Positions 46,127-58,001 of a stretch of DNA of 64,000 bases are shown one piece after another. The notes beneath the pieces are model-generated. The model was not told the DNA's origin and searched no databases. It was given only the letters and a program-made list of their open reading frames with translations. The stretch comes from Bacteroidia bacterium (GTDB lineage: Bacteria; Bacteroidota; Ignavibacteria; SZUA-365): the NCBI GenBank assembly GCA_027493955.1, contig JAOSJT010000001.1:3645131-3709130 (forward strand). Reading direction: 5' to 3'. The position numbers and the translations under genes are program-made. Each line of letters opens with the position of its first letter. Within the stretch, counting starts at the first letter, position 1.

Positions 46127-47158
46127 ATGAGCAGCGCAACCGTTTCATCACAGCAGCCATGGATAAAGGTACTGCAATCGCATTCGATTGTGACGCGGAG
46201 TCCGGCGATGCGATCAATCTTCGAGCGAATCGATACGATTGCGCAAACAGATGTTACGATATTGATTACGGGTGAGACGGGGGTGGGCAAGGAATTGGTC
46301 GCGGAATACATCCACCGCATCAATCCCCGGTCCCAGCATTCATTCATCAAGGTCGGTCTTGCCGCGTTGCCGCCCGAGTTATTGGAGAGCGAGCTCTTCG
46401 GCCATGAGCAAGGGGCCTTTACCCATGCGATGCGCACAAAGAAGGGACTATTTGAACTCGCGAACAAGGGAACAATTTTACTCGACGACATTGATGATTT
46501 TCCGCTCCACCTTCAGGTCAAGCTTTTACGCGTTCTTGAGGAGCGCGCATTGATGCGTGTCGGAGGGACAACCCGGATACCCATCGATACACGAGTGATC
46601 TGCGCAACAAAAGTGGATCTTCGAAATCTCGTCGAACGGCGGCTCTTCCGGTCTGATCTGTTTTATCGAATAAACGTCGTCCCTGTGGATATTCCTGCTT
46701 TGCGTGACAGGCGGGAGGATATTTCACTGCTTGTCCAGTATTTCCTGGGCCGCTATGCACCGCACGATACCCCCCTCGTTGAAGAGCCGGCTATGAGAGC
46801 ATTGAACGATTACGCATGGCCCGGGAACGTACGCGAGTTAAAGAATACGGTACAGCGACTCGCCCTTTTCAATAAAAAAGCAATCTCGCTCGCAGACCTC
46901 CCCCGTGAAATTCGCAATGACAATCCCCTCGAAAATGTCCTGAAGACCTGTGGACATTGCTTTGCCAACGGAAGCGTTTCACTCGATCAACTTCTCTCCT
47001 GCCTCGAATTCAATCTGCTACGGCGTACGCTTGAGGAATGCCATGGCAATCGGAGCGAGGCGGCGCGCAAGTTGCGGCTTCGACTTTCGACCTTTCGCGA
47101 TCGCTTGGCAAAATACGGTCTTGATCACATAGCCGATGACGGAAATCCGTCAAGTTAA
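46127..47158 (+). CDS. sigma-54-dependent transcriptional activator (AAA+ plus HTH), divergent motifs
   Basis: 343 residues without an N-terminal receiver or GAF domain. AAA+ core: Walker A GETGVGKE at 49-56, ESELFGHEQGAFTHA at 87-101 and Walker B TILLDDI at 116-122, with sensor and arginine-finger text FRSDLFYRINVVP and PALRDRREDI. The canonical VNCAAL reads VGLAAL, GAFTGA reads GAFTHA, and Walker B ends Asp-Asp rather than Asp-Glu. The C-terminal Fis-type helix-turn-helix is present (RRTLEECHGNRSEAARKLRL). It lies immediately upstream of a -24/-12 promoter and likely controls the Etf-Hdr-Mvh operon. A signal-input domain is missing, so activity may be set by expression or a partner. Confidence 0.9.
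   Translation: MSSATVSSQQPWIKVLQSHSIVTRSPAMRSIFERIDTIAQTDVTILITGETGVGKELVAEYIHRINPRSQHSFIKVGLAALPPELLESELFGHEQGAFTHAMRTKKGLFELANKGTILLDDIDDFPLHLQVKLLRVLEERALMRVGGTTRIPIDTRVICATKVDLRNLVERRLFRSDLFYRINVVPVDIPALRDRREDISLLVQYFLGRYAPHDTPLVEEPAMRALNDYAWPGNVRELKNTVQRLALFNKKAISLADLPREIRNDNPLENVLKTCGHCFANGSVSLDQLLSCLEFNLLRRTLEECHGNRSEAARKLRLRLSTFRDRLAKYGLDHIADDGNPSS
47137..47152. promoter_or_regulatory. perfect dyad, candidate activator-binding site (UAS)
   Basis: TGACGGA-AA-TCCGTCA is a perfect 7-bp inverted repeat with a 2-base spacer. It lies inside the last codons of the activator gene. Its centre is about 110 bases upstream of the start site predicted from the -24/-12 promoter, a typical enhancer distance. 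Binding by the activator is inferred. Confidence 0.55.
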
Positions 47159-47226
47159 TAACGGTTTTCCGGTACTCGACACCATCACAACTCCCTCCAT
47201 TTGCTATTTTTTGCACGATTTATCGT

Positions 47227-47243
47227 TTGGCACGCTCATTGCT
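47227..47243 (+). promoter_or_regulatory. sigma-54 (-24/-12) promoter
   Basis: TTGGCACG-CTCA-TTGCT matches the sigma-54 consensus TTGGCACG-N4-TTGCW at every fixed position (GG at 47229-47230, GC at 47241-47242). It lies 77 bases before the etfB start and just after the activator gene. It should drive the nine-gene operon. Confidence 0.9.
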
Positions 47244-47319
47244 GTGCATTTAATCGCACGTCCATATCAGATGCCATCGGAAAACGTCGACAGTGTAACT
47301 ATGCGGTTGAGGCAGAGGC

Positions 47320-55972: not shown

Positions 55973-55989
55973 ATCGGAGGAGAACAGAT

Positions 55990-57504
55990 ATGCAACATGC
56001 AGGCACGAATCAAATGAACACAACATTGTCGAATAGCCCGGAAAATGGCGTCAGGCGAATCACGATCGATCCCATTACACGGCTTGAAGGCCATGGGAAG
56101 ATCGACATATTTCTTGATGCGGACGGAAATGTGGATCGCGCGTTTTTCCAGGTACCCGAACTGCGTGGTTTTGAAATCTTCAGCGTGGGGCGGCCGGCGG
56201 AAGACATGCCACAGATAACAAGCCGTATCTGCGGTGTCTGCCCAACCGCGCATCACATGGCCGCGACCAAGGCGCTTGATGATCTGTACAAGGTTACTCC
56301 GACGTCTGCTGCGATCAAGCTTCGCGAACTTCTCTACAACATCTTCATGCTCGAGGACCATGCACTGCACGTATATATCCTCGGAGGACCGGACTTCATC
56401 GTTGGTCCCGATGCGCCGGCGCCTCTGCGCAATGTGCTCGGCGTGATCCAATCCGTCGGACTTGAGACCGGGAAGCGGGTAATCTCCATGCGCCGACGAT
56501 TGCGCGAGCTTATCACACACCTTGGCGGAAAGGTGATTCATCCCGTCTTCGGCCTGCCGGGTGGTGTAGCGAAATATCTCGATATTTCCGATCTGCCTCG
56601 TTTTCGGGAGGTTGCGGTGGATGGTCTTGACTTCGCCCGCTTCACCCTACAGGTCTTCCATGATCTTGTGCTTGCCAATCAGGCATACGTGGATCTCATA
56701 ACATCCGATGCCTACACACATCGGACCTACTACATGGGCCTGGTTGACGAACAGAACAAGGTCAATTTCTATGATGGTTATCTCCGCGTCGTGGATTCCG
56801 AAGGGAATGTCTTCGCCCGTTTCCCTGCTGCGGACTACACTGACTATATTGCCGAACATGTCGAACCCTGGAGCTTCGTGAAATTCTGCTATCTTCGACC
56901 GGTGGGCTGGAATGGATTCACCGAAGGCAATGATAGCGGGATTTATTCTGTCGCACCGCTCGCACGGCTGAATGCAGCCCAGGGCATGGCGACGCCGGAG
57001 GCGCAGGAAGCATATGATGAGTACGTCGCCACGCTTGGTGAACCAGTACATCACACACTCGCGAACCACTGGGCACGTATCATCGAGATGCTGCAGGCGG
57101 CCGAAAGAATCAACGAACTTCTTGCCGATGACGAAATCACGAGCCGTGATATCCGGAATCTGCCCGATGCTATCCCAACACGTGGAATCGGTGTGGTCGA
57201 AGCTCCACGGGGAACGCTCATCCATCACTACGAGACGGATCCGAACGGTGTCATCACCAAGGCAAATCTGATCGTGGCAACCCAGAATAATGCAGCGCGT
57301 ATGGCTATGAGTGTAGAGAAAACCGCCCGTAGTCTCATCAAGAACGGGCAGGTTTCTGACGGATTGCTTAACAAAATCGAGATGGCTTTCCGTGCCTACG
57401 ATCCCTGCCACGCATGCGCGACACATAGTCTGCCCGGCAAGATGCCGCTCGTTCTGCGTATTCACGATGGCAAAGGTGTGCTTGTCAGCGAGCAGCGACG
57501 ATGA
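55990..57504 (+). CDS. mvhA: [NiFe] hydrogenase large subunit, MvhA-type (group 3c-like)
   Basis: 504 residues from ATG 55990 (CGGAGGAGA upstream; ATG 56014 also possible). L1 motif RICGVCPTAHH supplies Cys81 and Cys84, and L2 motif DPCHACATH gives Cys473 and Cys476 near the end, together the four NiFe ligands. A 25-residue tail after His479 would be removed by the maturation protease, encoded right next door. It catalyses reversible H2 oxidation. hyp genes for the NiFe cofactor are not in the window. The group assignment is by companion genes mvhD and hdrA. Confidence 0.94.
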   Translation: MQHAGTNQMNTTLSNSPENGVRRITIDPITRLEGHGKIDIFLDADGNVDRAFFQVPELRGFEIFSVGRPAEDMPQITSRICGVCPTAHHMAATKALDDLYKVTPTSAAIKLRELLYNIFMLEDHALHVYILGGPDFIVGPDAPAPLRNVLGVIQSVGLETGKRVISMRRRLRELITHLGGKVIHPVFGLPGGVAKYLDISDLPRFREVAVDGLDFARFTLQVFHDLVLANQAYVDLITSDAYTHRTYYMGLVDEQNKVNFYDGYLRVVDSEGNVFARFPAADYTDYIAEHVEPWSFVKFCYLRPVGWNGFTEGNDSGIYSVAPLARLNAAQGMATPEAQEAYDEYVATLGEPVHHTLANHWARIIEMLQAAERINELLADDEITSRDIRNLPDAIPTRGIGVVEAPRGTLIHHYETDPNGVITKANLIVATQNNAARMAMSVEKTARSLIKNGQVSDGLLNKIEMAFRAYDPCHACATHSLPGKMPLVLRIHDGKGVLVSEQRR

Positions 57505-58001
57505 TGCGCAATGCCTCACGCGTCCTTCTCCTTGCTTTGGGGAACGACCTGCTCAGTGATGATGCCGTCGCGTTTCATGCCGCAAGGCGGATTCACGCGC
57601 GGGGTCTGCTTGGTGTTGATGTGATTGAATCCGGTGAGGCGGGATTCGCCTTGCTGGAATTGATCACGGGTTACTCGCGCGTCATCATCATCGATGCACT
57701 GCATTCACTGCACTACCCCGCGGGAAGCATTGTCCAGTTTTCGGATAAGGATTTCGCTGCCACCGCATCCCCCTCACCACATTATGCGGGATTACCAGAC
57801 TTGCGTCGTCTTGCACAGACCATGGGAATTCCCTATCCGGAGCACATCGGTATTATCGCGATGGAAGTAGAGGATCCCTACACCATTGCGGAAAAACTCA
57901 CGAATCCGGTGCAACACGCATTGCCTGCATTTGTCGACGCCATTATTGATGCGATTGTGGAAGGACCAGTACGGCAGCGGGTTTCTAAAGCCATGGCATA
58001 A
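57501..58001 (+). CDS. hydrogenase maturation protease (HyaD/HycI-type)
   Basis: 166 residues. Opens with LLLALGNDLLSDDAVAFHAA, the conserved GNxLxxDD-type block, then DVIESGEAGFALLELITGYS and VIIIDALHS, matching the nickel-binding Asp/His residues of the endopeptidase. Removes the C-terminal tail of the large subunit after nickel insertion. It overlaps mvhA by four bases and ends the operon; 3 bases later the T9SS-gene remnant begins. Confidence 0.9.
   Translation: MMRNASRVLLLALGNDLLSDDAVAFHAARRIHARGLLGVDVIESGEAGFALLELITGYSRVIIIDALHSLHYPAGSIVQFSDKDFAATASPSPHYAGLPDLRRLAQTMGIPYPEHIGIIAMEVEDPYTIAEKLTNPVQHALPAFVDAIIDAIVEGPVRQRVSKAMA

Follow-up and report, generated by a model that had tools for sequence, protein, structure and literature searches.

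Which high-potential acceptor serves an HdrA-linked [NiFe] hydrogenase in a bacterium is the question raised by nine genes, etfB-etfA-etfD-hdrCB-hdrA-mvhD-mvhG-mvhA-hyaD, all located on the plus strand between positions 47320 and 58001 of a 64-kb stretch of DNA (the window) from the Ignavibacteria genome JAOSJT010000001.1, a single contig of 5.24 Mb. Hdr-Mvh complexes also occur in bacteria, which are not known to make the heterodisulfide of coenzymes M and B (CoM-CoB). In this operon an acceptor branch leading to menaquinone is visible in the gene content, and we consider with moderate confidence that the nine genes encode an electron-bifurcating H2:ferredoxin,menaquinone oxidoreductase. The gene content, its conservation, the substitution of hdrC-hdrB, homology and residue patterns are observations, whereas complex formation, the order of the electron carriers, ferredoxin as an acceptor and the direction of the reaction are inferred.

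Gene content and conservation of the operon

The genes, whose families were assigned with Pfam and NCBIfam, are the following.

47320..48096, +, etfB, electron transfer flavoprotein (Etf) beta, probably AMP (adenosine monophosphate)-type, that is non-bifurcating (PF01012, 2.5e-21)
48100..49077, +, etfA, Etf alpha with flavin adenine dinucleotide (FAD) domain (PF00766, 5.7e-31; PF01012)
49074..51233, +, etfD, membrane Etf:menaquinone oxidoreductase (matches M. smegmatis EtfD, 9ojn)
51237..52445, +, hdrCB, soluble sHdrB3-like protein with an HdrC-type di-cluster domain and a degenerate HdrB domain
52447..54453, +, hdrA, full-length FAD/Fe-S subunit, proposed bifurcating site (methanogen HdrA matches)
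54481..55005, +, mvhD, [2Fe-2S] link between hydrogenase and HdrA (PF02662 FlpD, 1.1e-52)
54998..55972, +, mvhG, hydrogenase small subunit (PF01058; best NCBIfam VhuG, 3.4e-63, below cut-off)
55990..57504, +, mvhA, group 3c [NiFe] large subunit (L1/L2 motifs; best NCBIfam VhuA, 1.6e-116, below cut-off)
57501..58001, +, hyaD/hycI-type hydrogenase maturation protease (TIGR00072, 2.3e-24, above cut-off)

With the start codons as chosen here, the successive intergenic gaps are 3, -4, 3, 1, 27, -8, 17 and -4 bases. A preliminary description of this stretch had claimed an unbroken nine-gene operon behind its own activator gene, and both were confirmed in their coordinates and families, the largest gap being 27 bases.

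A survey of 391 genomes of the class with HdrCB as query (E 1e-75) gave matches in 17 genomes, namely 6 of the 12 from the window's family (f1), seven from family f21, one each from f13 and f20, and two from f4, one of which (G382) carries a true sHdr cluster. In a phylum-wide sample 5 of 395 genomes matched, two of them outside the class at 43% identity, and 13 of 286 matched in the class to which G393, the source of locus L036, belongs. Loci of this last class, which also include L035 and L050 from its members G392 and G394, are called verrucomicrobial here. In total, 31 loci of the H2 type were read: 6 from f1, 7 from f21, 3 with a split HdrA and 15 verrucomicrobial. In 27 of them the complete trio etfB, etfA and etfD adjoins hdrCB, and contig ends cut the others (L102, L109, L110 and L175); for two of the cut loci, the etfB of genome G004, and the etfB together with an EtfD-sized frame of G011, were found on other contigs. 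EtfD thus stands beside hdrCB wherever the contig allows, which the preliminary description had named as a finding that would support it.

The nine-gene order is found on one contig in four f1 genomes (the window's and those of L106, L107 and L108), and in two others it is interrupted by contig ends. All f1 loci (6/6) and all f21 loci (7/7) contain MvhDGA; a hyaD homologue comes next in each of the six f1 loci but, among the f21 loci, was seen only in L094 and L095. Five verrucomicrobial loci (L173, which is cut within mvhG, and L178-L181) show the permuted order mvhDGA-hdrCB-etfB-etfA-etfD-hdrA. In L035, L036 and L177, hdrC-hdrB is followed by the whole module, and in L174 the module is followed about 3.5 kb further by hdrC-hdrB-hdrA, with MvhA beyond. 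MvhA was detected at 66-73% identity in 12 of the 14 verrucomicrobial carriers searched. The occurrence of the same gene set in different orders speaks for a functional unit. The refuting condition set in the preliminary description, Etf-EtfD and Hdr-Mvh at separate loci in relatives and a juxtaposition unique to one assembly, does not apply, the set being conserved in two families and in Verrucomicrobia. Chance juxtaposition, or an artefact of one assembly, was rejected on this recurrence and on the permuted orders.

In the split type (L101, L102, L103, and L104 of the same genome as L103), etfBA-etfD-hdrCB occurs with the N-terminal half of HdrA. L102 and L104 also have a NuoF-like protein, a second HdrA-like protein (586-587 amino acids) and MvhDGA; L101 and L102 have a protein with an FeFe-hydrogenase domain, and L101 has in addition a PHP-domain protein. 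This variant is possibly a form linked to reduced nicotinamide adenine dinucleotide (NADH).

A branch of the sHdr type in the place of HdrC and HdrB

In the class, 25 genomes without the module but with MvhA at at least 66% identity were listed, and 11 of their loci were read (MvhA 67-72% identical). Canonical hdrC-hdrB directly precedes hdrA-mvhDGA in all ten uncut loci (L111, L112, L114-L120 and L126; L113 is cut). Where these have hdrC-hdrB, the loci of f1, f21 and several Verrucomicrobia have etfB-etfA-etfD-hdrCB, a replacement that amounts to a module swap.

Thirteen further loci are type II sHdr clusters with sHdrC1, sHdrB1, a short sHdrA, Hyp and sHdrB3, most of them also carrying DsrE-like, LbpA-like and LplA-like genes; two additional matches (L052 and L053, 25% and 34%) were not used further. 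Type II sHdr has been described as shdrC1B1AHB3 with etfAB, shdrB3 corresponding to fused C2 and B2 (PMC11582611; papers are cited by PMC number throughout), and a linkage of sHdr and etfBA has been noted in Actinobacteria and Firmicutes (PMC6067878). EtfB, EtfA and EtfD follow in 10 of the 13 clusters, L039, L041 and L048 ending earlier and L041 also missing its start. The HdrCB, EtfB, EtfA and EtfD of the window are 43-45% identical to those of the sHdr cluster L046, the values for HdrCB and EtfAB being 44-45%. Searches for sHdrB1, Hyp, LbpA, LplA and DsrE gave no match in the window at E 1e-3, and weak matches of sHdrC1 and sHdrA fall on hdrCB and hdrA.

In the HdrCB tree, the H2-type proteins form one clade (100/100) that is sister to sHdrB3 (92/88) and not inside it; for this tree and that of EtfD, the programs warned of long branches meeting. 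The EtfBs of the operons and of the sHdr-II clusters form one group against 24 housekeeping EtfBs of the class, and the EtfDs do so against 23 housekeeping EtfDs, in a tree whose L039 and L041 rows are artefacts, the EtfD query having matched sHdrB3 on contigs without etfD. Judged from these trees and identities, the EtfBA-EtfD-HdrCB branch and the sHdrB3-EtfBA-EtfD branch found in type II sHdr clusters are homologous. A housekeeping Etf/EtfD captured by chance was rejected on the trees together with the residue pattern of the CCG domains.

Residues were compared in alignments, with residue roles taken from PMC13083937. All eight HdrC Cys of HdrCB, forming two [4Fe-4S] motifs, are retained in 34/34 rows. 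The last CCG2 Cys is replaced by Glu in 33/33 rows with letters, and among the five Cys positions of CCG1 the CxxC pair is replaced in 34/34 rows and one further Cys in 33/34. The remaining two CCG1 positions are Cys in 24/34 rows, including the window, and Ser in 7/7 f21 rows. HdrCB thus does not have the two complete CCG motifs of a catalytic non-cubane pair, and canonical hdrB gave no match in the window. On these replaced ligands an HdrB-type disulfide reductase was rejected for HdrCB. Two other residues mark the H2-type proteins, C203 (21/21 rows; Ser in 13/13 sHdrB3) and C289 (19/20 rows; Tyr in 13/13 sHdrB3), and may serve as alternative cluster ligands.

The structure model of HdrCB matches EtfD with Z 34.8 (2.7 Å over 311 residues, 58-402) and HdrB with Z 22-23, and also LutA of a LutA-LutB model (Z 22.9). 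The fold-match rows span residues 153-402, and the Foldseek rows beyond rank 8 seem to be unrelated proteins. As the HdrC part is poorly modelled, the fold match tests mainly the HdrB domain. HdrCB resembles an sHdrB3-type electron wire more than an HdrB that reduces an acceptor. The fused HdrCB of the preliminary description is indeed a fusion, but an sHdrB3-like one and not one of canonical HdrC and HdrB.

Bifurcating (group 2) EtfB follows a Gly rule at position 123 in A. fermentans numbering (PMC12630350). In this column, placed by reading the alignments, the window has Asp and 28/28 rows have D/E; human ETF also has Asp. The Arg, Ser and His of EtfA that contact FAD are retained in 28/28 rows. 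A bifurcating Etf was rejected on the Asp/Glu at the Gly position, and the EtfAB of the operon is probably non-bifurcating, so that bifurcation, if any, would be located at HdrA.

EtfD was mapped by alignment on mycobacterial EtfD (9OJN), with the EtfD rows of L039, L041 and L048 left out. The structure model of EtfD itself was modest (mean pLDDT, the predicted local distance difference test, 68.6). The His pair of the membrane haem b and all eight Cys of the D3/D4 cubane clusters are retained wherever the alignment has letters. The four Cys of D1, the linear [3Fe-4S] cluster, are absent, the positions reading D/N/D/T: they are replaced by Asp, Asn (28/30 rows; one Cys, one Gly), Asp and Thr/Ser. 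One D2 Cys is replaced by Asp in 30/30 rows, and the CCG domains are degenerate. The housekeeping EtfDs have Cys at all five of these positions in 23/23. FadF and DgcB are also said to be without the D1 Cys (PMC13083937), and the loss of D1 therefore does not exclude membership in the EtfD family. The earlier view of an EtfD-like haem b quinone protein can be kept, with the refinement that its subtype differs from that of the 23 housekeeping EtfDs in the comparison.

HdrA matches the Methanothermobacter protein (8rvu) with E 3e-213 and 5odc_A with 3.6e-209. It aligns over its full length with methanogen HdrA and has the motifs of the FAD domain and of the C-terminal ferredoxin domain; its second inner Fe-S motif, CIHLKTGRCKDICVEVC, differs in spacing, as it does in canonical relatives of the class. 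Group 3c hydrogenases have the motifs ICGxCxxxH (L1) and AYDPCxxCATH (L2) (PMC6085437). MvhA carries ICGVCPTAH and AYDPCHACATH, and MvhD, whose presence is a further mark of group 3c, was identified by PF02662. Two other MvhA-like proteins of the window genome show 39-40% identity.

Predicted reaction and competing readings

In the proposed route H2 would be split by the group 3c hydrogenase MvhAG, and the electrons would pass via MvhD to the FAD of HdrA. HdrA would bifurcate them: ferredoxin (Fd), or another carrier of comparably low potential, would receive one, and the HdrC-type clusters in HdrCB would lead the other to EtfAB, which would carry it to EtfD in the membrane, where Fe-S clusters and haem b would hand it on to menaquinone (MQ). 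Because HdrCB and EtfD are homologous, EtfAB would shuttle between two related docking partners, the soluble HdrCB bound to HdrA and the membrane EtfD. Menaquinone would fill the role that the CoM-CoB heterodisulfide has in methanogens, and EtfBA-EtfD-HdrCB would be a quinone-exit module common to sHdr-II, in which a lipoate/sulfur-handling front end would take the other side. The most likely reaction would be 2 H2 + Fdox + MQ -> Fdred + MQH2. The first suggestion for this operon is supported in part. The coupling of H2, HdrA and the quinone pool in one machine is upheld by the analysis; the Etf is probably not a bifurcating one, and, as HdrCB looks like a wire, an Etf/Hdr-linked acceptor in addition to quinone is not needed.

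The energy of this reaction was computed from published potentials (ferredoxin about -450 mV and menaquinone -74 mV, PMC10734219; H2 -414 mV and ferredoxin about -500 mV, PMC9304861). With ferredoxin at -450 mV and menaquinone at -74 mV it amounts, per 2 H2, to -58.7 kJ at 1 bar, -13.0 kJ at 10 Pa, -1.5 kJ at 1 Pa and +9.9 kJ at 0.1 Pa; with ferredoxin at -500 mV it is -3.3 kJ at 10 Pa and +8.1 kJ at 1 Pa. On these values the reaction is exergonic above about 1 Pa H2, or 5 Pa with the lower ferredoxin potential, so that uptake of H2 would be the favoured direction except at very low H2 or with a strongly reduced quinone pool. The direction had been called not readable from the sequence; we still infer it, with thermodynamics favouring H2 uptake above about 1 to 5 Pa H2. 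The haem-copper oxidase domain COX1 (PF00115) is present in 27 of the 30 genomes examined, with three copies in that of the window, and the PFOR/KOR-type domain POR_N (PF01855) in all 30, a content that fits a quinone-respiring cell with ferredoxin enzymes.

The same machine could run in reverse, menaquinol and reduced ferredoxin confurcating at HdrA with the evolution of H2, either as a fermentation outlet or at very low H2. Such bifurcating systems are reversible in principle, and the PFOR/KOR-type genes of the 30 genomes could supply the reduced ferredoxin. An Ignavibacteriae metagenome-assembled genome has been proposed to re-oxidise fermentation ferredoxin with hydrogenases including MvhADG/HdrABC (PMC7509429), in line with such a role. 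With a half-reduced menaquinone pool, however, confurcation would be uphill above about 1 Pa H2 (ferredoxin at -450 mV) or 5 Pa (-500 mV), and the pool can be oxidised, since haem-copper oxidase genes occur in 14 of the 17 carriers examined. We therefore regard net H2 evolution as unlikely.

A shade less probable again is a plain H2:quinone oxidoreductase, in which HdrA would relay electrons from MvhD to HdrCB without bifurcation and no ferredoxin would be reduced. Two outputs cannot be proven from sequence, and no strong autotrophic demand for ferredoxin was seen, as the citrate-binding domain of ATP-citrate lyase exceeded the cut-off in only 1 of the 30 genomes and was not found in that of the window; autotrophy through this enzyme is thus unsupported as a ferredoxin sink. 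The full-length HdrA with its FAD and C-terminal ferredoxin-domain motifs nevertheless resembles bifurcating HdrA, whereas the sHdr clusters, read here as relay-only, carry a short HdrA (353 amino acids in L044 and L046).

It is improbable that EtfAB accepts electrons from acyl-CoA dehydrogenases and that Hdr-Mvh disposes of them as H2. EtfD does link beta-oxidation to menaquinone in mycobacteria (PMC13083937), but the window genome has a second EtfB, only 29% identical to that of the operon, and a further EtfD-sized homologue at C1:3247590 (a 689-amino-acid frame, recognised by size and match only and outside the trees), the operon copies of EtfB and EtfD belong to the sHdr/H2 group, and no acyl-CoA dehydrogenase is encoded among the nine genes, the flanks and sister loci not having been searched for one. 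Least probable is that HdrCB still reduces a disulfide or other small acceptor beside a separate, co-regulated EtfBA-EtfD system: the HdrB of methanogens reduces a disulfide, sHdr-II acts on lipoate-bound sulfur, and the window HdrCB keeps two of the five CCG1 Cys plus two extra Cys, but key HdrB cluster ligands are replaced, hdrCB accompanies etfBA-etfD in all 27 uncut loci, permuted orders included, and LbpA, sHdrB1 and canonical hdrB have no match in the window.

Several observations weigh against the bifurcating H2:ferredoxin,menaquinone oxidoreductase. The module is rare, one of its 17 occurrences among the 391 class genomes being a true sHdr cluster. Two of the 14 verrucomicrobial carriers searched, G394 and G407, gave no MvhA match at E 1e-40; in G394 (L050) the module and a full-length hdrA occur without mvhDGA, with unrelated genes after hdrA (after position 13292), and in G407 the contig ends after hdrA. 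The MvhA beside the module of G642 is a 47% match with two internal stops, a 68% copy being located elsewhere. Genomes G069, G309 and G226, of the split type, combine the module with the N-terminal half of HdrA, and COX1 was not found in the carriers G004, G392 and G394 among the 30 genomes examined. Finally, the history of EtfD is mosaic. The EtfDs of the window and two relatives group with those of sHdr-II and two other f1 members do not, and monophyly of the H2-type EtfDs was rejected (p-AU 0.001), as was that of the f1 EtfDs (p-AU 0.0002), in topology groups chosen after the first tree had been seen and with L039, L041 and L048 left out. The module was thus not always inherited as one piece, and EtfD may have been exchanged between H2-type and sHdr-II operons. 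Inheritance of the operon as one block is, for EtfD, unsupported by the topology test.

Control, surroundings and relation to known systems

Two features precede the operon.

46127..47158, +, sigma-54-dependent activator, AAA+ plus Fis-type helix-turn-helix (Pfam PF00158, 4.5e-64; PF02954)
47228..47243, +, sigma-54 -24/-12 promoter site TGGCACGCTCATTGCT, 0 mismatches to the consensus

The etfB start lies 161 bases downstream of the activator gene. The site has no mismatch to the sigma-54 -24/-12 consensus TGGCACRNNNNTTGCW, and it is the only match with at most one mismatch in the 64 kb, where 1.36 are expected by chance. It counts because it is exact, well placed and recurrent upstream of etfB, with 0 mismatches in L106 and 1 in L107 (L108 has a weak one), and not because of the motif alone. 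None of 13 other loci scanned (6 f21, 4 verrucomicrobial and 3 canonical) had a matching site, in a scan that left out L097 and, for G004 and G011, the ends carrying etfB. No sensor domain was found in the activator by Pfam. Its homologues occur upstream of the operon in L106 (65%) and L108 (59%), beside canonical hdrCBA-mvhDGA in L117 (58%) and L125 (51%), and beside sHdr clusters (53% in L105, 37-40% in others). Since sigma-54 activators are a large family, only the activators of L106 and L108 and the sites of L106 and L107, with the weak one of L108, support a shared control. Sigma-54 control of the operon, proposed from the outset, is accordingly supported as a local feature of the window and its close relatives and does not extend to the f21, verrucomicrobial and canonical loci scanned. 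In six f21 loci (L094, L095, L096, L098, L099 and L100) the place of the activator before etfB is taken by a cytidylate-kinase-like gene of about 270 amino acids (PF13189 in L095).

A 98-base direct repeat, 82% identical, brackets the activator and the operon at 45919-46016 and 58002-58099. The secretion-tail gene upstream contributes its 3' end and the bases that follow, and these are found again immediately after hyaD, as though the 12-kb block had been inserted into copies of such genes or between them. Genes with a Por secretion-tail-like C-terminus surround the operon (42150-43994, 44040-45986 and 59874-61064), PF18962 exceeding its cut-off only in the last and staying below it in the first two. 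In 58188-59828 Pfam did not find PF18962, and the C-terminal end is similar by eye.

The presence of Hdr-Mvh clusters in bacteria has been remarked on as surprising (PMC5317091), an Ignavibacteriae metagenome-assembled genome was annotated with a heterodisulfide-linked Hdr-Mvh (PMC7509429), and for Moorella a menaquinone link to an HdrA-containing methylene-tetrahydrofolate reductase has been proposed (PMC13040438). Among the matches listed from the open-licence PMC literature, in the passages concerned, there was no description of Mvh-HdrA with EtfBA-EtfD in one operon. If the reading proposed here is true, respiring bacteria have an HdrA-type path, tied to the quinone pool, by which ferredoxin can be reduced with H2, and type II sHdr sulfur oxidation gains a testable electron exit. 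It also suggests an Etf that links an Hdr-like complex to the membrane instead of accepting electrons from dehydrogenases, and a blanket annotation of mvhA-hdrA loci as H2:heterodisulfide/ferredoxin would be misleading in these genomes. We see an even balance for and against the broader view that EtfBA-EtfD-sHdrB3 is a general quinone-exit plug on HdrA-type front ends, namely the group 3c hydrogenase, sHdr-II and perhaps a split-HdrA/NuoF-like, NADH-linked form. HdrA would then be a bifurcating hub, with H2-driven ferredoxin reduction at the expense of menaquinone in respiring bacteria.

Among known systems, EtfABCX/FixABCX, which transfers electrons from NADH to ferredoxin and quinone, shares the predicted output to ferredoxin and quinone from one donor. 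Here, in contrast, the donor would be H2, the bifurcating flavin is proposed to lie in HdrA, Etf is probably non-bifurcating and the quinone protein is EtfD rather than EtfCX. Mycobacterial EtfD (9OJN) has the same haem b ligands and two cubane clusters, with a soluble fold that is also common to HdrCB, but the operon protein differs from it in having other residues at the Cys positions of the D1 cluster and at one Cys position of D2. The MvhAGD-HdrABC complexes of Methanothermococcus (5ODC) and Methanothermobacter (8RVU), and bacterial hdrCBA-mvhDGA, resemble the operon in HdrA, MvhD, MvhG and MvhA with matching motifs, and bacterial hdrCBA-mvhDGA of class relatives also in the gene order downstream of hdrA; unlike them, the operon has a fused, ligand-poor HdrCB with EtfBA and EtfD in the place of HdrC and HdrB, and the complete heterodisulfide site is not present. 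Type II sHdr shares the sHdrB3-like fused protein, EtfBA and EtfD at 40-48% identity, with the same replacement of CCG ligands, whereas the window combines this branch with a full-length HdrA and a [NiFe] hydrogenase, without a separate sHdrC1 or a short sHdrA.

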